Assembly (NCBI RefSeq): GCF_002754935.1
Contig: NZ_CP018092.1
Location: forward strand, 1,798,001 to 1,862,000
Reading direction: 5' to 3'
Length of the DNA: 64,000 nt
DNA from: Thermostichus lividus PCC 6715
GTDB lineage: Bacteria > Cyanobacteriota > Cyanobacteriia > Thermosynechococcales > Thermosynechococcaceae
Positions within the stretch are counted from its first letter, which is position 1. Each line of letters opens with the position of its first letter. Of the stretch, positions 4,530 to 60,800 are shown in pieces. The notes under the pieces were generated by a model that searched no databases, was not told where the DNA came from, and was given only the letters and a program-made list of their open reading frames with translations. The position numbers and the translations under genes are program-made.

Positions 4530-5669
4530 GTGGGAGTAAGCACAACAGCGATGTACGACTGTATTATTGTTGGCGGTGGGCCAGCGGGCGGTGCAGCTGC
4601 CTATCACCTTGCGCAGCGGGGGCGATCGGTCTTGGTGTTGGAAAAATGCCCACTGCCGCGCTCTAAGCCCTGCACTGGTGGGGTCTCACCCGCAGTGGCG
4701 CAGTGGTTTGACTTTGACTTTAGCCCTGCCATCGTGGAGACCACCCGTACAGTTCGCTACACATGGAAGCTAGAGGATGCCGTAGAGCGGGAACTGAATA
4801 TTCCAGACCCCATTTGGATTGTGCAGCGGTCTGTGTTTGATCACTTTCTGTTGCAGCAAGGGCAACGGTTAGGGGTAACGGTCTGCGATAACACCACGGT
4901 GACGGGGATTGACTTTACAGGCGATCACTGGTCGGTGCATACGCCAACTGCGGCCTATCGGGCGGCCTATGTGATCGCTGCCGATGGTGCGAACAGTCAA
5001 ATGGCGCAATGGCTAGGTTTTAAGCCAAAGGTGGTTCGTACCGCAGCGGTGATGACCGTGCCCAATGAGGGGGGCGATCGCGCCGTGCATTTTGAATTTG
5101 GTCTGGTCAAAAATGGTTTTCTTTGGAGCTTTCCCAGCGGCGAGTTGCGCACCGTAGGGGTAGGGGTGTTACGGGGGGGCGATCGCACTGATTGGGAACC
5201 CGTGTTGCAGCAGTACTGCGCCGCCCATAACCTAGCAATGGCAAACAGCCACGTTCAGTACCATCCCCTCTGTGTGTGGGAAGGGGCACAGCCCTTGCAC
5301 ACTCAGCACGCCCTTTTAGTAGGGGAAGCAGCGGGTTTAGTGGATCCCTTTTCCGCAGAGGGCATTCGTCCGGCGCTCTACAGTGGCATGTGTGCAGCAG
5401 AAGCCATTGATGCGGCCTTAGCAGGAGACCCGACCGCGCTGCCCAACTATAGCCAACGCCTCCAGAACGAGTGGGGCACCGATCTAGCGTGGGCACAACG
5501 CCTCGCCGGACTCTTTCATCGGATGCCCGGTGTGGGATACCGTTTAGCCATGAAACGTCCCTCCGCCACTCGGCGACTGGGGCAGGTGCTCTGCGGTGAG
5601 CTGCGCTACCGCGATATTGCGGCTAATGCCATGAAGCGTCTGAGCACTGCCTTTATCCCCGGACGTTAG
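4530..5669 (+). CDS. Geranylgeranyl-reductase-family FAD-dependent oxidoreductase
   Basis: 379 residues from GTG 4530, or 372 from ATG 4551, where homologous proteins usually begin (MYDCIIVGGGPAGG). The N-terminal Rossmann motif GGGPAGGAAAYHLAQRG binds FAD; the middle has CTGGVSP; GEAAGLVDPFSAEGI near residue 270 is the second FAD-contact motif of the geranylgeranyl reductase/flavin-halogenase-like superfamily. It is related to ChlP, which reduces geranylgeranyl to phytyl chains, but is probably a paralog because the sequence diverges from what I recall of ChlP. An AGGAG box at 4522-4526 is too close to GTG 4530, so ATG 4551 remains plausible. Its end overlaps the convergent radical SAM gene by 4 bases. 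Confidence 0.8.
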   Translation: MGVSTTAMYDCIIVGGGPAGGAAAYHLAQRGRSVLVLEKCPLPRSKPCTGGVSPAVAQWFDFDFSPAIVETTRTVRYTWKLEDAVERELNIPDPIWIVQRSVFDHFLLQQGQRLGVTVCDNTTVTGIDFTGDHWSVHTPTAAYRAAYVIAADGANSQMAQWLGFKPKVVRTAAVMTVPNEGGDRAVHFEFGLVKNGFLWSFPSGELRTVGVGVLRGGDRTDWEPVLQQYCAAHNLAMANSHVQYHPLCVWEGAQPLHTQHALLVGEAAGLVDPFSAEGIRPALYSGMCAAEAIDAALAGDPTALPNYSQRLQNEWGTDLAWAQRLAGLFHRMPGVGYRLAMKRPSATRRLGQVLCGELRYRDIAANAMKRLSTAFIPGR

Positions 5670-8258
5670 GGGGAACAGCTCTCAAGGTGCAACTGCCGAC
5701 GGGTCACCCGCTGTAACACTAGCGATCGCCCACTGGCGACTTCCAGTAAGTGCAGGCAGTGTTCAGGCCGCAAGAAGGTGCCATCATTGCGGCACACGCC
5801 TTTATAGATTAAACGTAGGGTTGGCCAATGGGGTTGCTCTGGGGTAAGGGCAATCTCGAGGAGGCGATCGCGCAGGTTAATGATCTTCGATTTGCCGGAT
5901 TTAGTGGTTAATTCGTAGGGCACCTCAGCGGTCGCTCGCAGGGTCTGTAGAACCTCCTCCCACTCCGGCAGGGAACACTCGTCTGGGGCGCAAATCAGCA
6001 GTTCGTAAGTGGCGGCCACAAGGGCTTGGCTGGCAGCAGGCGCGCTCAAAGGCACCACCTCACAGCGATAAAGGGGTAACTCTGGCGGTAGCTGCTGCCG
6101 CAACTGGCTGAGGACAACCTCTGGATCAACCGCTTGGTGAAATTCAAGATCCACAAGTTCACCTTCACTGGCCATCCCCAGGGGCAAGGCACTGGCGGTG
6201 GCAATGCGCGGTGCAGGATGAAACCCACCACTAAAGGCAATCGGTAGCTGAGCACGGCGCACGGCTCGCTCCAGCAGCCGTAGCAGATCAAGATGGCTGA
6301 TGAGGGTCATGCTGCCCACTTTGCCAAAGGTGAGGCGGAGGCGTTGAACCCGCTCCTGAGGAGGACGGCACTGCTCTTGAATCGCAGGAATGGGGGGCGG
6401 TGGCACCACAACATTATGGCCAAAGTCAAGGCCACACACGCCACAGTGGGAGCAGCCAGCAAAGGAACAATCAGGAACCACAACTGCGGCGAGGGCACGC
6501 TGGAGATCCTCTTTGAGCCACGCTTTGCTAATGCCAGTGTCAATGTGATCCCAAGGGAGGGGCGCATCCAAGGCGGCAGCTTCGCCACTAAAGACATTCC
6601 ACTCCCCGGCTTCGAGTTGGCGGTATTTCCAATCTAGCCCTGCCTCGGCGATCGCTTGCGTCCAGGCGGCATAGGCACGATCTAGGCTTTCCCACCATGA
6701 ATCTTCGCGCGCCCCTAACTCCCATGCGCGGCGGATCACTGCCCCAAGTTGGCGATCGCCGCGACCGACAAAGTCCTCCATCGCAGAGATGCGCACATCG
6801 GTAAAGTTGACCTTGAGGCCGCGAATGGTGCGGAACTCCGCCTTCAGGAGCGCCTGCTTACGCTCAAACTCAGCCGTGGAGACCGCATGCCACTGAAAAG
6901 GTGTGTGGGGCTTGGGGGTAAAGTTAGAGATCGTCAGATGAAAATTCAGGGGTTTGCGGCCTTTCATCCAGCATTCTCGTTTGAGCCAGCGGATGGTTTC
7001 AGCAATGCCAAGCACATCGGCATCGGTTTCCCCGGGCAGGCCAATCATAAAATAGAGCTTGACTTTGTCCCACCCCTGCTCGTAAGCGGTTTTGACCCCC
7101 CGCAGCAACTCTTCATTAGTTAGCCCCTTATTGATGATGTCCCGCAGTCGTTGCGTTCCTGCCTCCGGGGCAAAGGTTAAGCTACTCTGGCGGGTGCCGC
7201 CGACAATGTGGGCAATGTTTTCGTCAAAGCGATCCACCCGCTGGCTGGGTAATGACAAGGAGATCTGCTCATGCCGGAGGCGATTTTTAATTTCGACCCC
7301 CACTGCGGGCAGGGCTAAATAATCGGAACAACTTAACGAAAGCAGCGAAAAACTCGTTATAACCGGTTGCTCGCATCCCGGTTTCAATGGCGGCAATCAC
7401 CTCATCTGGAGCCACATCCCGGGCAGGACGGGTGAGCATCCCCGGTTGGCAAAACCGACAGCCCCGGGTACAGCCGCGGCGAATTTCCACCGTCAGGCGA
7501 TCGTGCACCGTCTCGACGTAGGGCACCAAGCCAACGGCATAGGCGGGTAGAGGGGTAGCCACGCGGCGCAAAATCCGTTCTGGAACATCGGCACGATTGG
7601 GGACAACGGCACCATCCGGTTGGCGATCGTAGAACTGGGGGACATAAACCCCCGGCACTTGCGCTAGGTCTAATAGAGTCTCTTGGCGGCTGAGACCGGC
7701 GCGCTTCGCGTCTGCCACCACTAGGCCAATTTCCGGTAGCAGTTCCTCGCCGTCCCCAAGGGCAAAGAAATCAAAAAAATCAGCGTAGGGTTCTGGGTTG
7801 GAGGTGGCGGTTTGCCCGCCGGCAAAGATCAGGGGTATCTCGGTGGTGTGTTGCCGCTCAGCCCACGTCAGGGGTAGCCCAGCTAAATCCAACATTTCTA
7901 GGATATTGGTTGCCCCCAATTCGTAGCTAAGGCTAAAGCCAATCAGGTCAAAGTCCGCCAGCGGGCGGCGGGACTCAACAGCAAACAGCGGTGTTTGGGT
8001 GGTACGCAGTTTTTGCGCCAGATCCGCAGCGGGTAAGTAGGCGCGATCGCAAAGCTGATCGGGCACCGTATTGAGAATGTTGTAAAGAATAATGTGCCCA
8101 AGGTTGGAGGCACCGACTTCATAGATTTCTGGGTAGCTGAGTACCCAGCGAACCGTGGCCGCGTCCCAAGGTTTACGCACTGCCCCCAATTCATTGCCCA
8201 GATAGCGGGCGGGCTTGAGAATATCAGTACTCAGCAGTTCAGCAACGGGAATAGCCAT
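5666..8258 (-). CDS. TIGR03960-type radical SAM protein with DUF2344 domain (one apparent frameshift)
   Basis: Read as one gene of about 863 residues. The first half (8258 to about 7350) has a B12-binding-like region and the radical SAM cluster motif RGCTRGCRFCQPGM. The second half (to 5666) continues the barrel with TFAPEAGTQRLRDIINKG and ends in a DUF2344 domain (RLTFGKVGSMTLISHLDLLR). The frames join in a run of five A (plus strand, 7348-7352): dropping one base restores continuity from ATGYNEF into SLLSLSCSDY. A sequencing insertion is more likely than a real break. The reaction is not known to me. It is last in the leftward cluster mnmA-rpoZ-8283-5666. Confidence 0.8.
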
Positions 8259-17573: not shown

Positions 17574-17666
17574 TCTGCGCACTCACATCCGAAAGACAAC
17601 CGCCAATCTTCCGTATTAGGATGAAGCCGGTAGGTGGATTGGCATGGTGTGAGGGATTCATCAATC

Positions 17667-20600
17667 ATGACACAGCAATCGCAAGCATCTCGCTGGGGTC
17701 GTCGGCAGCGCCTGTGGGGCACGGCTGTTGTCCTCGTGGGTGCAGCGGCGATCGCTGGCGGCGTGCGAGCGTGGTGGTTTGTGAACTACGAGCTGGCTCC
17801 CCAAATGAGTCAACAACTGCAAAAACGCCTGAATCGCCCGGTACAAATTGGCGAGGTTGAGCAGGTTGGGCTAAATTTTATCCGCTTTGGAGCCTCAGAG
17901 ATTCCCAGCTACACGGCGGCAGGACAAATTGAACCCGACAGCGCCACCCTTGAGGGGATTGAGGTCTCCTTTAACCTGTGGCAAATTCTCACGGGTCAAA
18001 AGTTAACCATTGGCATTACCTTACAACAGCCGCAAATTACCGTCGTTCAAGATCGTAGTGGGCAGTGGTGGCGTACCGAATTGATGCTGCCGCAGGATCA
18101 GGAGACCCCCTTTGACCTTGGTGAGCTATCCCTGCGATTACGCAACGGCTCTGTGGTGGTTCAGCCCTTTGGCAAGCCAGCCTACCGTCTTGAGAACATC
18201 CACGGCGCTGTCACCCTCAACCCTGACACTAAAAACTTGGCTCTACGCGGTCAACTGGAGGGAAATTTGGCCACGGGGGGCAGTGGCGGCTAGAGGGCGA
18301 CTGGGATCAACCAACTGCAACAGGCACCTTACACATCCAAGGTAAAGCCATTGCCGTTGCCCTCATTAATGACTTTGACATTTTGCCGGAAACCCTTGTG
18401 GTCGAGCGGGGACAACTTGACGGCCAGATCAGCGTGGCATTCCCCCTCACGGATACCCCAGACATTACTGGCCAAGTGTGGTTGCGGGGGGCAGATCTGC
18501 GCAGCACAGACGTGCCCCAAAGCCTCAAGAACGTGAATGCCCATCTGCAATTACAGGGCGATCGCGTCCGGCTGCACTACCTCCGGGGAGAAGTAGCCAA
18601 TGTGAAATGGCACGCCAAAGGGACAGTGGGACTACAGACCGGCTGGCAGATTGATGCGGAAGTCGGCACGCTGGATTTAGCACCGACCTTGAGCGCCTTC
18701 AACCTAGAGCCTCCTGTGCCCTTAGGCGGTCGAGTTCACATTCCCCGCTTGGAAATTCGCGGTGCTCTCGATAATCCCAACGTGCAAGGGGAAATCCGCA
18801 GCCAAACCCCCCTAAGAGTAGATCAACTCCGTCTGCAATCGGTCACTCTTCCCTTTGTTGCCTCCCTAGAGGGCCTACAGCTTACGAATGCTGTAGCTGA
18901 GCTGCAAAGCGGTGGCACGCTGAATGCTGACCTGAGGTTGCAGCCGAATGGGGCGTTCCAAGGGCGTGCCCAGGTTCGTCACGTTGCCCTAGATGCGATC
19001 GCCGCTGCCTATGACGTAGCATCCCCGATGCCCTTGGGGCGTGGCTTTGCCCAAATAGATTTTGGCGGTGATGTGGCTGCCCCTGAAACCTGGTTGGCCA
19101 AGGCAGCGTTTGAATTGCCGACGGCTCAGTATCCCCTCAGGGGCGTGGCTCAGATCAACCAAACTCAACTCTTGGTGCCGAATTTTCAGGTGCAATTGCG
19201 CCCCGGCGTTCTGCAAGGTCGCGCCCAAGCGGTAGCCGGGCGATGGCAACTGGAGGCAACGGCGCACAACGTGGCTCTGCGCCAGTTTAGCGACCAAGTC
19301 CATGGGCAATTAAACGGAGAGGCGATCGCCCAAGGGCGCATTGATGAGCTAAACCTTGGTGCCATAACAGCTCAAGCTAACCTGAGGGTCAGCCCAACCC
19401 CCACCGGTGATCCCCTGCTGGCGCGCTTAGGGTGGGATGGCCAACAGCTACGCCTCCAAGAGGCTACCTTGGGGGAGTGCGTGCCCAAGGGACGATTGCG
19501 GTGGATGTGGATGCCCTTGCCCTCGGGCAGGTGAACCTAGGGGTACAGGCAGACAACCTTTCCCTAGGGGCTTTAAGTGGGCTGTTTACGCCGGCTGTGC
19601 CTATCCCCGTCGCGATCGCCGGCACCAGTAGCCTGCAAGGACACCTCAGCGGCACGTTAGGCTCTCTTCAGTTTCAGGGAACGCTGCAAACTCGGCAGTT
19701 GGCCGTAAACGACCTGCGCTTTGCACCACTTCTGCGCGGTACCGTGGCCTTGAGTCAACAGCAGGGGGATCGTTGCGCTTGCAGGGAGGGGGCGATCGCC
19801 TTGAGCTACACCTTGACAGTGCGTGGCAACCCCAGTCCTTCGAGATTCAGCAGCAGCAAGCGCGGCTTGTTGGCCAGCGTCAAGAGGAGGCGTTGGCCAT
19901 TCGCCTGCAGCAGTTTCCCCTTGAGCGTCTGCGCATCGTGCCACCGCAACTGCCGGAAACCGCCATCATTGCTGGTACTGCATCAGGGCAACTGCGCCTA
20001 CAAGGGTGGAGCAGTGGCCAAGGCAGCCTCAGCATTGAGCGCCCGGGGCTAGGGGCATGGCGGGGCGATCGCCTCGATCTTCAGTTTGCCCTTGCCCCCA
20101 ATCGCCTCAGCCTCGGGCAAGGAGAGTTCCAAAAAGGCGAGAGTCAATACCAGTTTAGTGCCGATCTGCAACCCCAACGCTTAGCCGCTCAGCTTAGGAT
20201 TGCTCAGGGGAATTTGGAAGACCTCACAGGCTTGGCCACCGTTTTGGGGCTAGGTAACACCAAGACCTATGGCAGCGCCGCCGACTTGGGAACCCCCTCT
20301 GCTGGGGCAGGGCCAGATGCACTGCTGCTCACCCAAATTCGTCGCTTAGCAGAAATTGAAATGCTGCAAGCCCAAGCTGCCCTTGTGCGTCGCCCGCACC
20401 TCATCCCCCCCCTGTCTAAGCTGCAGGGGGACTTCAGCGGCCAGATCAGCCTCAGCCAAACTCCCCAGTCAGGTCTAGTGGCGAACTTTGATCTCAGCGG
20501 TCAAGACTGGCAGTGGGGGAACTATGCCATTGATCGCATCCTTAGTCGCGGGCGTTTTGCCCAACAGCAGTTAGTCCTCTCCACCATGGAGGTGGTGGCC

Positions 20601-22370
20601 AATGGCGGCCAACTGCAATTGAACGGCACCATCGGTGGCAGCACTCAAAAGGCTCAACTCACTCTGCAACAGTTTCCCATCAGTACCTTTGCCAGCCTCC
20701 TCCCTCCAGGCATTGACCTTGAGGGAACCGTCAATGGCCATGCGGTGATCACAGGCACGTGGCAGCGACCCATTTTTGTGGGGGAAGCCTCCCTTGGCGA
20801 TGCCCGCCTCAATCAGCGTCCCCTTGAAGCGGCCAATGCCACCTTCCGCTATGGCCAGAATCGTTTGGCACTGCAAGCAGTCGCCCGTTTTGATACCCCT
20901 GAACCCCTCACCATTACTGGCTCTGTGCCCCTGCCGTACCCCCTCGACCCCGATCCCCTCCCAGACCAGCGACTTGCCCTTGATGTGGCCATCAAAGATG
21001 AAGGACTCTCATTAATTAACGCCTTTACGGATCAGGTGCAGTGGCAGCAGGGGAAAGGCACCTTGCAAGCTCAGTTGCGGGGCACCTGGCAGCAGCCTCT
21101 GATCAATGGCGTGCTGAGTGTCGATGACGCAGTGCTGAAAACGCCCACCTTTACGGCTCCCTTGACCAACGTCAGTGCGCGGGTACGCTTTGATCGCGAT
21201 CGCCTACGGGTTGATGGTATCCAAGGAGTCTTTAGCCAAGGTCAAATTACGATGGCCGGGGTATTACCGATTCAGCAGCCCCTTGCTGCCGATGATGTCG
21301 ATGCTGAAACCCCCTTAACCATTAGTCTCAACCAACTCCAAGTGAATGCTAGGGAGATTTATCAGGGCACCGTCAACGGCACCTTAGTGATTACCGATAC
21401 CCTGTTGAGTCCGGATATTGGCGGTAGCGTCCAGCTCAGCCGTGGTCGCCTCGACCTAGGAGCGATCGCTGGCTTCGGCAATGGCAATGGTGCTCCTACT
21501 GTTCGCACGCCCCTCTTTGAGCAACCCGTCTTTGAGAACTTACAAATTCAACTGGTCGATACCCTACAGGTCACCCGTGCGCCCTTTCTCAATCTCAACG
21601 CCACGGGGAGCCTGACCCTCAATGGTGCCCTTGACACGCTTCAGCCCGCTGGGGAAATCCGCCTCACCAGCGGTCAGCTTAACCTATTTACTACCCTCTT
21701 TTTATTGCAACGACGCCGGGATAATTATGTTCGCTTTACCCCTGCTAACGGTCTTGACCCTGACCTAAACCTTACCCTTGCCGCAACCGCCACCGAAGTT
21801 TTTACCCCCGGCACCACCCGGCTAGGCGACTTTGGCACCGCAACCGCCACGAGTATTGGCACCCTCAACACCGTGCGCATTACCGCTCGTATCAATGGTC
21901 GTGCCAGCCAATTCCAAACCAACCTACCGGCAGTGCTCGAACTGTCTAGTAGCCCTCCCCGCAGTAATGCGGAGTTGCTGACCTTGATGGGGGGAGGGGC
22001 AAGTAGCGATCAAAATCAAGTCAGTGGCGAAGCTCTTGTGGCCAATATTGCTGGCTCCGCCCTGTTTAATAACCTCCAAGCTGCCATCGACCGCGCCACC
22101 GGCAACCGTACCTCCTTTCGGATTTTTCCGGCGGTGGTGCCACCGGATCGCAAGGCGCAATCCTCTACCCCTGCCTTGGCCGTTGGTGCAGAAGTGGGCT
22201 TTCAGATCAATAACTTTACCTCTGTGTCGCTGCTGCAATTGTTAACAGCCCCATCAGACCCCACACGATTTAACCTAGGCTTTCAGGTGAACGAGCACAT
22301 CCGCTTAGGATCGCAAATTAGCACCAATGGCGAGGGGACAGGTTTTCTTGAGTTTCGCCGCCGCTTTTAG
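17667..22370 (+). CDS. tamB: TamB-type translocation and assembly module protein (three apparent frameshifts)
   Basis: Read as one gene of about 1,568 residues from ATG 17667. The N-terminus has one membrane anchor (residues about 12-32); the long middle is repetitive AsmA/DUF490-like beta structure (Gln- and Gly-rich strands); the last 400 residues are the TamB C-terminal domain, ending in EGTGFLEFRRRF. TamB links inner and outer membranes and is involved in outer-membrane biogenesis and lipid transport. The frame is lost by one base at three G runs: 18275-18280, 19471-19475 and 19764-19768. Adding one G at each restores continuous protein (for example ATGGQWRLEGDWD at the first). Confidence 0.85.
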
Positions 22371-22523
22371 ACGGCAGGCAAACCTTAAGATTTTTTCCCT
22401 AGGTTGGCTCTAGAAACCTTTGTTAGCCTTGCAGTATCGTCATGTTGCTGTTTGCAGGCAAAACGGCAAGAGTGTCAAGAATGTCTTAAATTTCTTCATT
22501 TCAAGACGCAAAGAGAGCCGATA

Positions 22524-24322
22524 ATGGTAACACCTATTTCTTTTTTAGCAGAGTTAGAGCGGCTCCAGCAGGGGCGAGGGCAGGCCAACCCATGGAAGTT
22601 TTGGGGTCCCTATCTGAGTGAGCGGCAGTGGGGAACGGTACGAGAAGATTACTCGTGGGATGGCAATGCTTGGGAGTATTTTTCCCACGATCAGGCGCGA
22701 TCGCGGGCATACCGCTGGGGCGAAGATGGCCTTGGGGGGATTTGTGATGAGCAACAGCGATTGTGCTTTGCCTTAGCGCTCTGGAATGGCCAAGACCCCA
22801 TCCTCAAAGAGCGGCTATTTGGCCTCACGAATAACGAGGGGAACCGGGGTGAAGATGTCAAGGAGTACTACTTCTACCTCGACAGCACCCCTACCCATTC
22901 CTATATGAAGTACCTCTACAAATACCCCCAGCAGGCTTATCCCTACGAAGACCTCGTTATCACTAATCGCCACCGCACCCGCATAGACCTAGAGTATGAG
23001 CTTCTGGATACGGGGATTTTTGAGGGCGATCGCTACTTTGATGTGTTTATTGAATATGCCAAGGCTGCACCTAACGATCTTTTAATTCAAGTGAGTATTC
23101 ACAACCGCGGCGATCACGCGGCTGAGCTCAACGTCTTACCCACCCTCTGGTTCCGTAACACGTGGAGTTGGCACCCCGATTACACCCCCCGCAAACCGGA
23201 ACTAAAACAGATGGATGCCACTAAGGTGCGAGCACGCCATGAGGCGCTTGGCGAGTATGCATTCGTGAGCGATCGCCCCGTCCCCTTCCTATTTACTGAG
23301 AACGAAACCAACGTCGAGCGCCTCTTTAACCAGCCAAACCCCTCCCCCTACGTCAAAGATGGTATTCACCGCTACGTTATCCACGGAGAAAAGAGCGCTG
23401 TGAACCCGGGTAAGGTAGGCACCAAAGTTGCCGCCCACTACACACTCACCATTCCTGCCCAAGGGGTCGAGACCATTCAACTACGGCTATTTCAAGACGG
23501 TAGCTCCACCAGTGGTGCTTTTGGCCAAGCCTTTAACGACCAACTGCAAACTGCCATTGCCGAGGCAGACGCCTTTTACCATCACCTCATTCCTGACGAG
23601 TGCACGGCGGATCAGCGCAACATTATTCGCCAAGCCTGCGCTGGCATGCTGTGGACTAAGCAGTACTACTACTATCCCGTGAAACAGTGGCTAGAGGATA
23701 AGGTGCTGCCCCCCGATGTTGAGGAGCGAGTCATCTCCCGGAATGTCTGAGCGACTATGGCATTCGGGCGCTGTCGCGCTATCATTACGACCATCCCTAC
23801 ACCTTTCAACTCGGACGGGAAGCCTACCGCGTGACCTACGAGCCGGGGGAATCCTCCACTGGCTTATTTGGCGGGAATTCCAACTGGCGCGGCCCCATTT
23901 GGATGCCGGTGAATGCCCTACTGGTGCAGTCATTGCGGAAAATGTACGGCTATTATGGCAATGATTTTACGATTGAGTGCCCAACAGGGTCGGGGCGGTG
24001 GTTGAATTTGTGGGATGTTGCGACAGAAATTTCGCAGCGGCTGGCCAATATTTTCCTGCGGGATGAGTCTGGCCGCCGTCCACTTTACGGGGCAACTGAA
24101 ACCTTCCAACAGAATCCCCACTGGCGGGATTTAATTCTTTTTTATGAGTACTTCCACGGCGATAATGGTGCGGGGTTGGGGGCAAGTCACCAAACCGGTT
24201 GGACGGGGCTGATTGCACGGATCCTGATGGCACCCAATGTTATGGAGGCCAATGCCGTACTGGAGCAAGGATACCTGTCTGTTGCCTCTAAGGGGCTGGC
24301 AGCCTTAACTCGCACCCCATAA
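22524..24322 (+). pseudogene. MGH1-like glucosidase (GH63-related), internally deleted
   Basis: Starts at ATG 22524 (MVTPISFLAELE). The first 408 residues match the N-terminal half of a cyanobacterial glucosidase family of about 880 residues as I remember it (WGTVREDYSWDGNAWEYF, RLFGLTNNEGNRGEDVKEYYFYLD). After VISRN, at 23735-23750, the sequence jumps directly to LSDYGIRALSRYHYDHPY in another frame and runs to the family C-terminus (GLFGGNSNWRGPIW, FYEYFHGDNGAGLGASHQTGW). Roughly 280 residues forming the central catalytic barrel are missing, and the frame changes at the junction. Either a real deletion or a misassembly. Confidence 0.7.
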
Positions 24323-26029: not shown

Positions 26030-26447
26030 TGGGATTCTCCCAGCGATCTAAGCACCACAGGGTTAGCCCAGTGCCCAACTGCAGTGCCCCTAACCCCAAC
26101 CCCGTACTGCCCAGCCAGTAGAGCATCTCACCGCTGAAGTTCCGTGCCGCCACTAGCTGGGTCTGGTCTAGCTCGTAGGAGGAGAAGGTGGTGTAAGACC
26201 CTAAAAAACCGGTGGTCAACAGCAGCCGCAGATCTGGGTGCAGGGTAAAGGTACGGGCAAACCCCAGCGGGGCGATCGCCCCCATGAGAAAACAGCCAGT
26301 CACATTGACGATGAGGGTGGGCACCGGTAACCCAGACGGGAAAAGAGGCTCTAGATACGCTTCCACAAGAAACCGGCTTAACGCCCCTGGAATTGCGCCC
26401 AAGGCCACCGCCAAGGCTGGGCGCAGCACGGGATGAATCGTGATCAC
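26016..26447 (-). CDS. crcB: Fluoride-channel family protein CrcB/Fluc, first copy
   Basis: 143 residues with the same pattern: GAIPGALSRFLVE, LIVNVTGCFLMGA and GFLGSYTTFSSYELD. The ATG overlaps the end of the antiporter gene by 4 bases, and its own end overlaps the second crcB. The pair differs in sequence, typical of heterodimeric Fluc channels. I looked for a fluoride riboswitch at the head of the operon and did not see one. Confidence 0.9.
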   Translation of the reverse strand: MITIHPVLRPALAVALGAIPGALSRFLVEAYLEPLFPSGLPVPTLIVNVTGCFLMGAIAPLGFARTFTLHPDLRLLLTTGFLGSYTTFSSYELDQTQLVAARNFSGEMLYWLGSTGLGLGALQLGTGLTLWCLDRWENPNATP

Positions 26448-28056
26448 GATCTCGCCTCCTCCACAATCAGTACCGGACGGGTGGATGCCTCAAGAATACT
26501 CTGGCACACCGACCCCATCAATACCCGCTTGAACGCGCCTTGGCCATGCTTACCGAGAATAATCTCTGCCACATTGTACAGTTGGGCTGTAGCTAGGATG
26601 GCTTCGGTCACCGGCCCTGCAGTGACAATCAGCCGGTGGCGAATATCCGCAAGGAACTGGTTGGCGTAGGCTTCAATGGTGGCAACCGCCTTGGGGTCAG
26701 GGACATCCTGCACATGGAGGACAATCACTTCCGCATCGGCGCGCCGCGCTAATTCCGCCGTCTTTTGCAGCACTGTCGCTGTAACGCTGGAAGTATCCAC
26801 CGGTGCCAGCAGGACAATACGCGGCTGCAGCAGCACTTTCGTCGGATCCACCTCCCCCTTTTGCAGTAGTTTGGGGGCAAAGGTGGGAATCGCCCACGCC
26901 CCCAAAGGCGCAGTCACAAGGATCGAGAGAACGGCGATCGCCAGCATTGTCTCGCCCCCGGCGATACCGGCACTCAAGGGAAGCGCACCAATCGCCGCTT
27001 GCACCGTTGCCTTGGCGGAATTACCAGGAAGTAAAAATAATCGTTCGGCAGGAGTCCAATTACTGCCCAAGGTGGAGAGATACCAGCCCAGACCCCGGCC
27101 AATCAACGTTCCCACCAGCAAAATCAGTAGCCCTATCCCTAGGGACTGCTCCAAAACCCCCAACTGAACACTAGCGCCCAGGAGCACAAACAGAAAAATT
27201 TCTGCCACCTGCCACAGTACATCAAAGCCCCCCCGCAACTGCCGTGCTAAGGGAGCATCCATGTCGATAAGGAAAAAGCCTGCACTCATCACCGCCAAAT
27301 AGCCCGAAAATAGGGGAAGTCGAGGAGCCAAGCCCACCGCTGCCAAGGCCACCCCTGCGGTCACTAGAGTCGTTTGCACGCGGTTCTGCGCCCAATGTTG
27401 CCGCACCAGCAAGAGCACCAGTGCCCGTGCCAACCCATAGCCCACAATCAACCCGCCGCCAATTTCCAGCAGTGCTTGCACCGTCACCGCGACTGCGGGG
27501 GCAACCCATCGAACGGAAGCCCCCCCTGTTCCGTTCCCATAAGTAAGCTAAACAGCAGCAACACCAGCACATCCGACAGGGCACTGCCAGAGAGGATGGC
27601 ATCACTAATTCCCTTATCTACCCCCCAACCCAAACTCTTGAGCCGCAGCATCCCCGGCACAATGACTGCGGGAGACTCCGGTGCCACGATCGCCCCCAAC
27701 AATAGCCCCTGCCGCAGATCGAAACCCAGTAGCACCATCGCCACAAGAGCCACCACCGCCATTTCACACAATGCCGGTAAAATTCCTAGGCGCAGTGCCA
27801 CCGTTCCCTGCTGTGCCAACTTCTGACGGTCGAGACCTAACCCCGCCTTCATCAAAATCACCATCACCGCAACAGCGCGGAACACCGGTGCTGCTGTCAA
27901 CACATCCGGGTGCAATAGGTTCATCACCGCGGGGCCTAGGAGAATGCCAACCAAAATCATGCCAATCAGAGCCGGTGCGCCTAGCCGCCGTACCAATTGA
28001 CCACTAAAAAAGCCCAACACCAAGATCAGGGCAAGGGTTTCGAGGGGAGTTGACAT
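26444..28056 (-). CDS. CPA-type Na+/H+ antiporter with C-terminal universal-stress domain (one apparent frameshift)
   Basis: Read as one gene of about 537 residues from ATG 28056 (MSTPLETLALILVLG). Residues about 5-390 are a multi-helix cation/proton antiporter core (LGAPALIGMILVGILLGPA, IVAPESPAVIVPG). The last 140 residues are a UspA-like nucleotide-binding domain (VLLAPVDTSSVT, ILGKHGQGAFKRVLMGS). One G is missing in a C7 run on the plus strand (27520-27526); restoring it joins MGTEQGGASVRWVAP to VTVQALLE. As written, the two halves abut as TGA/GTG, so two polypeptides are also conceivable. First gene of an operon with two crcB genes. Confidence 0.8.
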
Positions 28057-28144
28057 GGTAGTAAGCTTAGTCTTAGCAGCAATTCCTACCATACTGGATA
28101 GCAGAACGGTGACGAATCCAAGAGCCGCTAGCATTCACCGTCAA

Positions 28145-52212: not shown

Positions 52213-52454
52213 ATGTTGGCTTTGGTAACTATGTGGCACCGGCTCGCGTCTTGGCGATCGTCAGCCCTGACTCAGCCCCCATCAAACGCTTAATTCTGGA
52301 AGCGCGGCAGCAGCATCACCTCATCGACACCACCCATGGGCGGCGCACCCGTGCAGTGTTGATTTTAGACGGCTCGACAGTCGTCCTATCGGCGCTGCAC
52401 CCGGAAACCCTAGCTGCCCGCTTGAGCCAGCCCCTAAAAGACCCCCACCCCTAG
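52206..52454 (+). CDS. RemA-like (DUF370) regulatory protein
   Basis: 82 residues. [40 protein letters not shown] and [20 protein letters not shown] match the RemA/DUF370 family; in Bacillus RemA binds DNA and activates biofilm-matrix genes. The role in cyanobacteria is unknown to me. The ATG overlaps carB by 7 bases, suggesting translational coupling. Its end overlaps the convergent J-domain gene by 4 bases. Confidence 0.85.
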
Positions 52455-53293
52455 GGATGTACATGGCCATCGGGCATAATGGCGCCACTGAGACGGGCAC
52501 CCGTGAGCTTAACCAGCAACCGATTGCCTTGGCTCATTTTGGCGCCCCGTAAATCTGCCCCGCGCAGATCCGCACCGCTGAGATCCGCCCCAATCAAGTT
52601 GGCCTCCCGCAGATCTGCATAGCTGAGATCCGCTTGCAACAAATTCGCTCGGAAGAGATTGGCATGGCGCAGGTTGGCACGGTGCAAAATCACTCGATGC
52701 AAAAATGCATCACTGAGGTCGGCATGGCTGAGGTTGGCATGGCTGAGGTTACGGCCTTCAAAGTCTTTTTCGCTGAGGTTGGCACCCTGTAAATTCACCC
52801 CCGACATATCCTTGTGGGGAGGCGTGGTGCGGGGTGGCTCCGGCGGCGGTGGCGCAGCGGTACGTTGGCGGCTGTAGGTGCCATAGGTATGGTTATGCGG
52901 CTGTGAGTAGCTACTGCCTGGCTGCTGCTCCCGGGAGGTCTGATAGCTGCGATAGGCGTAGGGGTTGGACTGGTAGTAGGAACCACTGCGATGCTCCCGT
53001 GGAGGTGTGGTAGTTGTACCGGTTGACGTACTGGCTTGGCGATAGCTCTGTCGCTGGTTGGTGCGTCCACTGGTGTGGCTGCCGTATTTGTGGATGTGCT
53101 GCCGCAGTTGATCGCGAGCGTCGTTAATTTGCTTAATCTTTTCTTGGGCTTTTTCCACCAGACGGACGTTATCTTTGGGAATGCGATCGGGATGCCAAAT
53201 AAACACGAGATCCCGATAGGCTCGATTCACGTCCTCTAGGGTTGCCCCCGGTTCTAACTCCAGTACCCGGTAACACGTCTCTAAATCGAGCAT
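52451..53293 (-). CDS. J-domain protein with C-terminal pentapeptide repeats
   Basis: 280 residues from ATG 53293 ([16 protein letters not shown]); earlier in-frame ATGs (53323, 53311) are less typical. J domain at residues 1-65 with the HPD motif in [11 protein letters not shown], which stimulates Hsp70. Residues about 80-170 are a Ser/Tyr/Pro-rich linker. The last 100 residues are about 19 pentapeptide repeats of the A(D/N)LxX type, which fold as a right-handed quadrilateral helix. This fusion is known in cyanobacteria, function undefined. Confidence 0.85.
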
Positions 53294-53422
53294 CCTTTGA
53301 CGGCCTATCATGGATAGTGACAATTCTAACGGTGGGATTGCCCCCCTTGGGTTGAGAAAGAATGCGCTAATATTAACTTATGTAAAAACTCTTCATAATT
53401 TTGCATCGGAGGATGGCGATCG

Positions 53423-55261
53423 GTGAATAAGCAATGGCGCAATGCGGGGTTATACGTTCTTTTAGCAATTGTGGTGCTGGCGTTGGCCACCGCCTTTTTT
53501 GATCGCCAGCCCACCATTAAGCAGACTTGGGCCTACAGTCAACTGATTCAAGAAGTCGAGAACAAGCAAGTTAGTAAAATCAGCATCAGTCCCGATCGCG
53601 CTCAGGCACAAGCGATTACCCAAGACGGGACGCGGGTGTTAGTCAACCTCCCCAACGATCCTGAATTACTGGATATCTTGGCCAGGAATAATGTGGATAT
53701 TTCCGTCTTACCCCAGAGCAATGATGGCTTCTGGTTCCGGGCGCTGAGTAGCCTGCTGGTGCCCATTGGCCTGTTGGTTCTATTGTTCTTCCTGTTGCGG
53801 CGCGCCCAGGCCGGTCCTGGGAACCAAGCGATGAACTTTGGTAAATCGCGGGCACGGGTACAAATGGAGCCGCAAACCCAAGTCACCTTTAATGACGTGG
53901 CAGGCATTGACCAAGCCAAGCTGGAATTGGGGGAAGTGGTGGAGTTCCTCAAGTACGCTGATCGCTTCACGGAAGTGGGTGCCAAAATCCCCAAAGGGGT
54001 GCTGTTGGTGGGTCCCCCCGGAACCGGTAAAACGCTGCTGGCACGAGCTGTAGCCGGTGAAGCAGGGGTTCCCTTCTTTTCCATCTCTGGCTCTGAGTTT
54101 GTGGAAATGTTTGTCGGGGTGGGTGCCTCGCGGGTGCGGGATCTCTTTGAGCAGGCAAAGGCCAACGCTCCCTGCATTGTCTTTATTGATGAAATTGATG
54201 CCGTGGGTCGCCAGCGGGGCGCCGGTCTTGGCGGCGGCAACGATGAGCGCGAGCAAACCCTCAACCAACTGCTGACGGAAATGGATGGCTTTGAGGGGAA
54301 CACTGGCATTATCATTATTGCGGCCACAAACCGCCCCGATGTCCTCGATGCTGCCCTGTTGCGCCCCGGTCGCTTCGATCGCCAAGTGGTTGTGGATCGC
54401 CCTGACTATAAAGGCCGTCTTGATATTCTCAAAGTCCATGCCCGTGGCAAAACCTTGGCCAAGGATGTGGATCTCGATAAAATTGCCCGCCGTACCCCTG
54501 GCTTTACGGGGGCTGATCTGTCCAATTTGCTGAACGAAGCCGCCATCCTTGCCGCTCGTCGTAATCTGACTGAAATTTCCATGGATGAGATCAACGATGC
54601 CATTGATCGGGTCCTGGCCGGGCCTGAGAAGAAAGATCGCGTCATGAGCGAGCGGCGCAAAACCCTTGTGGCTTACCACGAAGCGGGTCATGCCTTGGTG
54701 GGTGCCCTGATGCCAGATTACGACCCAGTGCAGAAAGTCAGCATCATCCCCCGTGGGCGTGCCGGTGGCTTAACCTGGTTCACCCCCAACGAAGATCAGA
54801 TGGATTCTGGCCTCTATAGCCGCGCTTACCTGCAAAATCAGATGGCGGTTGCTTTGGGGGGGCGGATTGCTGAAGAGATTGTCTTTGGTGAGGACGAAGT
54901 GACCACTGGCGCGTCTAACGATCTCCAGCAAGTGGCACGGGTAGCTCGGCAAATGGTGACGCGCTTTGGCATGAGCGATCGCCTCGGTCCGGTGGCCTTG
55001 GGGCGGCAATCAGGCAATGTGTTCCTTGGCCGAGACATCATGGCGGAGCGGGATTTCTCAGAAGAAACCGCTGCAACCATTGACGATGAGGTGCGCAATT
55101 TGGTGGATCAAGCCTACCGGCGTGCTAAAGAGGTGCTGGTCAACAACCGTCATGTACTGGATCAGATTGCCCAAGTCCTGATCGAAAAAGAAACCATCGA
55201 TGCCGAGGAACTTCAGACGATCCTTGATCGCAATGACGTGAAAATGGCAGCCATCCCCTAG
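53423..55261 (+). CDS. ftsH: ATP-dependent zinc metalloprotease FtsH
   Basis: 612 residues from GTG 53423, with GGAGGA 10 bases upstream. Membrane helices near residues 7-24 and 108-126, AAA domain with GPPGTGKT near 198, Walker [16 protein letters not shown] region, and protease HEAGH near 417 ([19 protein letters not shown]). FtsH degrades damaged thylakoid and membrane proteins, notably D1 of photosystem II. Which of the four cyanobacterial FtsH paralogs this is cannot be settled here. Confidence 0.95.
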
Positions 55262-58869: not shown

Positions 58870-58897
58870 CTCTCTCTTGCCTCCATCGTTGTATAGT
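58866..58897 (+). promoter_or_regulatory. Candidate promoter for the 58939 gene
   Basis: TTGACT (58866-58871) and TATAGT (58892-58897) are 20 bases apart, longer than the ideal 17, with the start codon 41 bases after the -10. The TTGACT begins in the last codon of the kinase gene, so this would be a promoter separate from the kinase transcript. Confidence 0.35.
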
Positions 58898-58938
58898 GTT
58901 GTTCTACACAGAATCACCTTCAAGCTAGGGGAATCCAC

Positions 58939-59169
58939 ATGCAGTTATTGGCCACGGGTTTTACCGTCGGGGCTGGAAATTTTGTTCCGTTTTATGGAGT
59001 GCTCATTCTGGGATTGATTGCAGCGGTCAGTATTGGCTTGGTGGCATGGTACAACTCCAAGCGCCCGCCGGGCTGGGAAAATGCCGATCGCCCCAGGTTT
59101 ATTCCCAAGCTAGATTTGGATAGCGATACCCCGCCTGCCGCAGCCCCTGAGGATGAAACCGATTCGTGA
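58939..59169 (+). CDS. Small single-helix membrane protein, possibly Psb35-related
   Basis: 76 residues: a membrane helix at about 18-41 (FYGVLILGLIAAVSIGLVAW) followed by NSKRPPGWENADRPRFIPKL and an acidic tail. The AWYNSKRPPGWE motif recalls small cyanobacterial proteins annotated as photosystem II Psb35-related, but I recall this only loosely. It could be a thylakoid or plasma membrane peptide. A GTG-TGA overlap joins it to the exporter gene, so it may be a partner of that exporter instead. Confidence 0.6.
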   Translation: MQLLATGFTVGAGNFVPFYGVLILGLIAAVSIGLVAWYNSKRPPGWENADRPRFIPKLDLDSDTPPAAAPEDETDS

Positions 59170-60800
59170 AGCTGTTCCGTATTCTGCTTCAGGCCGCATG
59201 GCCAACCGTCGCGGGAGCAGCTTTTGCTGGACTCCTCAACGGGGGGAGTACCGCCGGCCTCATTGCCCTGATTAATGCCACCCTCCAGGGAACCCCATCG
59301 TTACAACCGCTATTGCCGTGGGGGTTTATTGTTTTGGGGGGGCTGCTACTGCTGACTCACTTCGCCTCTCAGGTCTTGCTAGTGCGCGCAGCCCAACAAG
59401 CCGTCTATGAAATGCGCTTACTCCTTGGACGGCAAATTTTAGCCTCTCCCCTGCGGCAACTCGAAGCCATTGGCCAGCCGCAACTGCTAGCAACCCTCAC
59501 AGAAGACGTAGATGCGGTCGCCCGATCGTTTTCAGTGTTGCCCAATCTCTTTAATGCCGTGGCGATTGTGTGTGGCTGTTTAATCTATATGGGTTGGTTG
59601 TCACCGCCCCTATTTTTTGCTCTAGTTGCTTTAATTGGCATTGGTGCAGGTAGCTACATGGTTCTGGCGGGAAAAGCCCGGCAGTTTCTCGAGCAAGCGC
59701 GCAGCGAACAGGATCGGCTGTTTCAGCATTTTCGTAGCCTCACCGAGGGGGTAAAAGAACTAAAGCTAAATCGGCGGCGACGGCTGGCATTTCTGCATCA
59801 AGAACTAGAACCCACCGCCCAGCAAACGCGACAGCAAAACCAATTAGGGTATATGGTCTTTGCCATTGCCGCCAGTTGGGGGCAGTTATTGCTCTTCGTC
59901 ACCATTGGCTTCTTCCTGTTTACGTTGCCGCACCTGCTGGGAGCAACGCCGACGGTGCTCTCCGGCTATGTCCTAACTATTATTTACCTGATGCTGCCGA
60001 TGCAGCAGGTGATTGATGCCATTCCTATTTTTAGTCGTGCCAGCGTTGCCCTCAAAAAAGTGGAATCCTTGCAACTGAGCTTGGAGGAACCACAGCAAGA
60101 CCCTGATGCCAGTGCTGACTTCATGCCCTTGAGCTGGCAGAGGCTGCGCTTGGAAAACATTCGCCATCAGTACCGCGGCACCCATGAGGATGAGCCAGTG
60201 ACCTTTACCCTTGGCCCGCTCAGTCTAAAAGCAGAGGCTGGCGAGCTAATTTTTATTGTGGGGGGCAATGGCAGTGGCAAATCTACCCTAGCCAAGATTA
60301 TTACTGGCCTTTACGTGCCGGATCAGGGCGAGATTTGGGTGGATGATCATTGCCTGACTCCCAACGACTATGAATGGTATCGGCAGCACTTTAGCGCGGT
60401 CTTCAGTGACTTTTATTTATTTGATCGGCTCTTGGGTCTGGATTCTCCAGACCGCTTAGCAGTGGTGCCCTACTACCTCGATAAGTTACGCCTGAGTCAT
60501 AAAGTCCGGCTTGAGGGCAATCGCTTTTCTACCACGTCCCTCTCTCAAGGCGAGCGCAAACGCCTCGGGCTACTGATGGCCTATCTCGACGATCGCCCCG
60601 CCTATCTCTTTGATGAATGGGCGGCGGATCAAGATCCCGTCTTTCGCGATATTTTTTACCGCCAACTGCTACCGGAGCTAAAGGCACAGGGCAAAACCGT
60701 ATTTGTCATTAGCCATGACGATCGCTACTTTGATGTGGCTGACCAACTCCTGAAGCTAGACTACGGCCAACTGGTGCAGCACACTTGCCGCAATCAATAG
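59166..60800 (+). CDS. PvdE/SyrD-type ABC exporter (membrane + ATPase fused)
   Basis: 544 residues. Six membrane helices (residues about 10-290) then an ABC domain with Walker A GGNGSGKST near 365, signature LSQGERKRLG (not canonical LSGGQ) and Walker B AYLFDEWAADQDP, the motif typical of cyclic-peptide/siderophore exporters of the PvdE/SyrD family. In Pseudomonas PvdE exports a peptide siderophore precursor; the substrate here is unknown. No NRPS genes are nearby. The GTG start overlaps the stop of the upstream small gene by 4 bases. Confidence 0.88.
   Translation: MKLFRILLQAAWPTVAGAAFAGLLNGGSTAGLIALINATLQGTPSLQPLLPWGFIVLGGLLLLTHFASQVLLVRAAQQAVYEMRLLLGRQILASPLRQLEAIGQPQLLATLTEDVDAVARSFSVLPNLFNAVAIVCGCLIYMGWLSPPLFFALVALIGIGAGSYMVLAGKARQFLEQARSEQDRLFQHFRSLTEGVKELKLNRRRRLAFLHQELEPTAQQTRQQNQLGYMVFAIAASWGQLLLFVTIGFFLFTLPHLLGATPTVLSGYVLTIIYLMLPMQQVIDAIPIFSRASVALKKVESLQLSLEEPQQDPDASADFMPLSWQRLRLENIRHQYRGTHEDEPVTFTLGPLSLKAEAGELIFIVGGNGSGKSTLAKIITGLYVPDQGEIWVDDHCLTPNDYEWYRQHFSAVFSDFYLFDRLLGLDSPDRLAVVPYYLDKLRLSHKVRLEGNRFSTTSLSQGERKRLGLLMAYLDDRPAYLFDEWAADQDPVFRDIFYRQLLPELKAQGKTVFVISHDDRYFDVADQLLKLDYGQLVQHTCRNQ

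Follow-up and report, generated by a model that had tools for sequence, protein, structure and literature searches.

In the window, by which is meant the whole 64,000-nucleotide stretch of Thermostichus lividus PCC 6715 DNA analysed here, psb35, which codes for an established assembly factor of photosystem II, and the gene of an ABC exporter constitute a probable lineage-specific bicistron; the pairing itself is well supported. The reading we favour, at a probability of about two in three, is that the bicistron is translationally coupled, that Psb35 keeps its role in photosystem II and that the exporter is co-expressed with it, carrying something other than an NRPS- or NIS-type siderophore. 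The features concerned are:

58892-58905, + strand: promoter-like box upstream of psb35, TATAGT (58892-58897) and TGTTCT (58900-58905), by consensus match
58939-59169, + strand: psb35 (76 aa, ATG start), gene of the photosystem II assembly factor Psb35, equivalog NF047378
58990-59046, + strand: the one transmembrane helix of Psb35 (residues 18-36, by hydropathy), with small-residue spacing G25-A29-G33
59166-59169, + strand: GTGA overlap of the exporter GTG start and the psb35 TGA stop
59166-60800, + strand: TIGR01194-type ABC exporter, 544 aa, membrane and ATPase domains fused, GTG start
60261-60284, + strand: Walker A of the exporter, GGNGSGKS, by motif reading
60540-60554, + strand: ABC signature of the exporter, LSQGE, by motif reading
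60600-60620, + strand: Walker B of the exporter with the catalytic Glu, AYLFDEW, by motif reading
60705-60716, + strand: H-loop of the exporter, VISH, by motif reading

The two proteins and their junction

The sequence-only reading had described a 76-residue single-helix protein, possibly photosystem-associated, that overlaps the start of an exporter by GTGA. Both open reading frames and the four shared bases are there, and the association with photosystems can be made exact. The small protein scores 84.5 bits against the Psb35 profile NF047378 (cut-off 40), it is the sole copy in the 2.66-Mb genome, and its one hydrophobic helix is followed by the NSKRPxGWE motif of the family. No Pfam family reaches its cut-off on the 76 residues, and a search for relatives of solved structure returned none at E<=1. 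With its single helix and a score twice the cut-off it resembles the family member ssl2148 of Synechocystis PCC 6803, and G25, G33, N39, S40, P43, G45, W46, and P52 are invariant in all rows read. It differs from the Synechocystis protein in that its stop codon overlaps the exporter gene. It further carries leucine at positions 26 and 34 instead of phenylalanine and serine, as do a few unpaired copies, and the tail is longer in Thermosynechococcus than in the paired genomes G396 and G400. Passages of three papers (PMC9145668, PMC9458560, PMC11449106) describe Psb35 of Synechocystis as a protein that attaches to the CP47 module and stabilises both the module and its bound Hlips.

The residues were compared in an alignment for which 158 loci were read. 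Of these, 145 gave a row, and the pattern excluded 13 (L096, L202, L205, L213-L215, L217-L220, L237, L248, L253). The 18 paired rows represent 14 distinct genes, since L080 repeats the window and L097-L099 repeat L079, L088, and L089, and the unpaired rows may likewise contain repeats. G25 and G33 are found in 127/127 unpaired rows and A29 in 126/127, while all three are present in 18/18 paired rows. Residues 26 and 34 at first seemed specific to the pair, with phenylalanine and serine in 79/79 unpaired rows, a set biased to top scorers. When the test was widened by 60 lower-scoring or second copies, F26L/S34L, present in 16/18 paired rows, was also met in 8/127 unpaired rows (at least one change), and it is absent in two paired genera; a specialisation of Psb35 for the exporter was therefore rejected. 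The core residues are unchanged between paired and unpaired rows, and none of the 11 genus genomes has a second copy of the gene, so the paired Psb35 very probably still serves photosystem II.

The TIGR01194 subfamily of cyclic peptide export ABC transporters has PvdE, SyrD, and E. coli YojI among its members. The window exporter matches this model at 453.7 bits (cut-off 286.2) over positions 11-551 of 554, and it is the only protein of the genome over the cut-off. It contains the domains PF00664 and PF00005, and Walker A, signature, Walker B, and H-loop are all intact. Against the YojI-type equivalog PRK10522 it reaches 443.4 bits, below the cut-off of 604. A search for relatives of solved structure at E<=1e-20 gave ABCB1, ABCB4, the bile salt export pump, and MsbA, and no others.

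The reading frame of the exporter is open no earlier than 59157, with the GTG at 59166 as its first start codon, so the overlap does not depend on the choice of start. The same four bases are shared in 11/11 genomes of the genus, as expected of a translationally coupled pair. No clear Shine-Dalgarno sequence was seen at the usual spacing upstream of the exporter start. GTG is the start in 14/14 paired exporter genes, while a valine codon stands at the aligned start in 4/40 unpaired ones. TATAGT followed by TGTTCT precedes psb35 in 11/11 genus genomes though the upstream gene changes, and is absent in the three other paired genera.

These observations are consistent with the two genes being transcribed as one unit, an arrangement confined to Thermosynechococcus and three neighbouring genera. 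The transcript would most likely start at a promoter in front of psb35, as the intergenic room before the exporter is nil, and ribosomes that end psb35 at GUGA would restart on the overlapping GUG and go on to make the exporter. Judged from its family, Psb35 would act as in Synechocystis and stabilise the CP47 module with its bound high-light-inducible proteins during photosystem II assembly. The exporter would be a separate and complete type IV ABC exporter, presumably a homodimer like others of its family, with a cargo that is probably not an NRPS- or NIS-type siderophore. The tie between the genes would then be co-expression, the pump being made while a new photosystem is built.

Distribution, origin and retention of the pair

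The phylum was sampled evenly with 386 genomes. Psb35 was detected in 116 of them, in some with two to four matches, and in none of the other 270. TIGR01194 exporters are found in 48 at E<=1e-60, of which 47 score over the cut-off. Both genes occur together in 45 genomes, and in five, all from the family of the window, they are adjacent; in the remaining 40/40, outside the family and many of them draft contigs, the genes lie apart. Named loci retrieved with a Psb35 query had the exporter in the fetched flanks in 3/39 cases, all Thermosynechococcus. Within the family, 29 genomes were searched, and each gene was detected in 22. The genes are adjacent in all 11 genus genomes, in G280 and in G396, and separated by one open reading frame in G400. 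The junction is the GTGA overlap throughout the genus, TAG abutting GTG in G280, a 27-bp gap in G396, and about 650 bp with a PemK-like reading frame in G400. The latter (PemK/MazF-like, L163:8409-8816, PF02452 79.1 bits) is the only interruption of the pair that was seen. The pair is thus conserved in Thermosynechococcus and three neighbouring genera, and is not a cyanobacterial rule; the first part of the refuting condition set by the sequence-only reading, a pair that is not conserved, has a split outcome, with retention throughout the genus and in three more genera and no pairing in the rest of the phylum sample.

The paired exporters form one clade with a support of 100/100 in trees of 54 and 57 exporters, rooted with three and one other ABC proteins of the window genome, respectively. 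L057 (internal stop), L156, and L159 (partial or split) were left out, as were exporter matches lacking a locus except those from L175, L177, and L315-L317. The trees are without the hpn-adjacent G155 and have long branches at L054/L315, L144/L002, and L145/L158. As the paired exporters are a single clade, the simplest account would be that the pairing arose once and was then tightened. The 11/11 overlaps are for the same reason not eleven independent tests, the pairing being one evolutionary event.

Retention was judged against the surrounding gene order by searching two 20-kb stretches of the window in six relatives and scoring 22 neighbouring gene pairs. The order is heavily scrambled, and even the congener G402 keeps only 6/22 pairs. 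Widely kept are pentapeptide-DnaJ/ftsH (6/6), mnmA/ilvC (5/6), and psb35/exporter (5/5 where both were detected); dnaJ/hisC is kept in 4/6 relatives, and none of the remaining pairs in as many. These stretches hold one further same-strand four-base overlap, where ruvB meets the gene after it, and this survives in 1/5 testable relatives (G407). An overlap alone consequently proves nothing, and it is the retention of psb35/exporter that constitutes the signal. The flanks of the pair vary, the 14 genomes showing seven different contexts upstream and six downstream, and the pair has outlived this heavy scrambling. Both genes are under purifying selection, with dN/dS of 0.05-0.07 for the exporter and 0.08-0.28 for Psb35 in five genome pairs, which together with the retained overlap speaks against a chance arrangement.

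A link of the pair to the ftsH or dnaJ of the window was considered and rejected, since that neighbourhood is not kept in relatives. The divergent DnaJ/pentapeptide-repeat gene and ftsH (window 52451-55261) are themselves neighbours in 6/6 relatives despite the scrambling. Elsewhere in the window, three genes (17634-22370, 22404-24322, 26444-28134) are broken into two to four reading frames and are single ones in G407 (1569, 935, and 538 aa), by sequencing errors or real decay, and a radical-SAM-like gene at 5666-8258 on the minus strand also seems to be divided between two frames (576 and 323 aa).

The sequence-only reading had offered three roles for the small protein: a regulator, an exporter subunit, or one unrelated but coupled. 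The last, understood as coupling in expression, fits best. A purely neutral operon is a less likely alternative; the exporter would have landed behind psb35 once in an ancestor of the family and lost its own promoter, after which separation would silence it with no physiology shared between the two. The single origin of the pairing, its absence outside the family, and the GTG start throughout the paired clade agree with this, as does the occurrence of the exporter elsewhere in cyanobacteria with no psb35 beside it. The survival of the pair through relocation to seven upstream contexts, together with the tightening from a 27-bp gap to an overlap, speaks against it, although loss of the exporter's own promoter would give the same result. 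It is very unlikely that Psb35 of the paired clade serves the exporter as a small accessory subunit. Small single-helix partners of pumps do exist and the overlap links expression of the two proteins, but the paired Psb35 shows no clade-specific change, its substitutions at 26 and 34 being neither confined to nor constant in paired genera, and as the only Psb35 of the genus it probably also serves photosystem II. Co-expression of a photosystem II protein and an independent pump is hence the relation we prefer.

Cargo of the exporter

The exporter had been placed by the sequence-only reading in a PvdE-type family that usually moves peptide siderophores, with no NRPS nearby. The placement is right at the level of the subfamily, and the missing NRPS, as judged by the condensation domain, extends to the whole genome. 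The hint of a siderophore is not borne out: whole-genome searches found neither an NRPS condensation domain (PF00668) nor an IucA/IucC domain (PF04183), and thus no siderophore synthesis gene of these two kinds, and related exporters sit with genes for hopanoids or polyketide glycolipids. The lack of an NRPS condensation domain in the genome also sets the window exporter apart from the TIGR01194 peptide exporters, which it otherwise resembles in its full-length match and its complete set of ATPase motifs. Secretion of a non-ribosomal peptide siderophore is therefore highly improbable, in spite of the subfamily model shared with PvdE, the role of which as the most likely ferribactin exporter is given in a passage of PMC6206403.

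A further peptide cargo is suggested by analogy. Mdl1 clears the products of AAA proteases in mitochondria, and an ftsH lies 3.7 kb upstream of the pair in the window, so the exporter might in a similar manner clear peptides released by membrane proteolysis in photosystem II turnover. In G407, G402, G179, G280, G400, and G396 ftsH is not near the pair, and we regard this function as scarcely credible.

In the cyanobacteria looked at, TIGR01194 exporters recur next to genes for amphiphilic lipids and not next to genes for peptide siderophores. The bacteriohopanetetrol glycosyltransferase HpnI is found in 51/386 genomes of the phylum sample at E<=1e-60, 37 of them over the cut-off. It co-occurs with the exporter in 31 genomes, and in 18 of these, spread across 10 genera and three families, no more than 5 kb separates the two. 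In G060 (L315:6568-14178), HpnH, an unnamed reading frame, HpnJ, HpnK, HpnI, and the exporter follow in a row on one strand, and in G175 (L176:7506-12873) the exporter faces HpnI-HpnK-HpnJ. At the level of genera both are present in 18/142, with the exporter in 29 and HpnI in 28 (Fisher p 6.5e-9, kinship not corrected). The hopanoid-gene neighbours suggest that cyanobacterial TIGR01194 exporters may include a hopanoid transporter. The exporter of G005 (L175:15-13151), nearer to the paired clade, belongs to a cluster of PfaB/PfaD type with a carrier-protein reductase, TubC-docking, a sulfotransferase, and a glycosyltransferase. This cluster resembles glycolipid-type PKS loci.

An amphiphile such as a hopanoid or a glycolipid would on these grounds be the best single guess for the window exporter, with a chance of roughly one in three. 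More specifically, its substrate might be a hopanoid (bacteriohopanepolyol) or an amphiphile like it, flipped or exported by a pump that is produced in step with photosystem II assembly to match membrane lipid composition to protein insertion, a proposal that we consider tentative. The genome contains a squalene-hopene cyclase (TIGR01507, 952 bits) and a single gene resembling HpnI (325 bits against a cut-off of 310), and the window exporter shares subfamily, architecture, and about 50% identity with the hpn-adjacent exporters of G060, G175, and G078. The cyclase is weak evidence, as it is over the cut-off in 29/29 genomes of the family. The HpnI-like gene lies about 100 kb from the pair, shares 36% identity with a linked HpnI and is flanked by neither HpnJ nor HpnK, and most HpnI-like genes of the genus score just under the cut-off. 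Of the 48 exporter genomes, 17 have no HpnI at E<=1e-60. The window exporter is not beside hpn genes as relatives are, and the paired clade, the one beside psb35, is set off from every one of the tree's 17 hpn-adjacent exporters by a branch supported at 98/100. A hopanoid-like cargo is for these reasons a lead and not a result, extrapolated across a well-supported split. The known hopanoid transporter HpnN would have only the proposed type of cargo in common with the exporter, as it is of another protein family (RND; from a passage of PMC12583986).

A bolder combination is unlikely, namely that the cyanobacterial TIGR01194 exporters are hopanoid (bacteriohopanepolyol) floppases or exporters, hard-wired by the bicistron to photosystem II assembly in Thermosynechococcus so that the lipid ordering of the membrane and the insertion of the CP47 module are controlled jointly.

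Implications of the pairing

Among the matches listed in the literature searched there was no report of the psb35-exporter pair or of a link between TIGR01194 and hopanoids, and none connecting the exporter to photosynthesis. Thermosynechococcus is one of the main sources of photosystem II structures. A psb35 knock-out in this genus may be polar on the exporter even with a neutral coupling. If the cargo is a hopanoid, the finding would name a cyanobacterial hopanoid transporter whose family differs from that of HpnN, and the label "cyclic peptide" on cyanobacterial TIGR01194 genes would have to be corrected. The hopanoid link of these exporters may in the end be worth more than their pairing with psb35.
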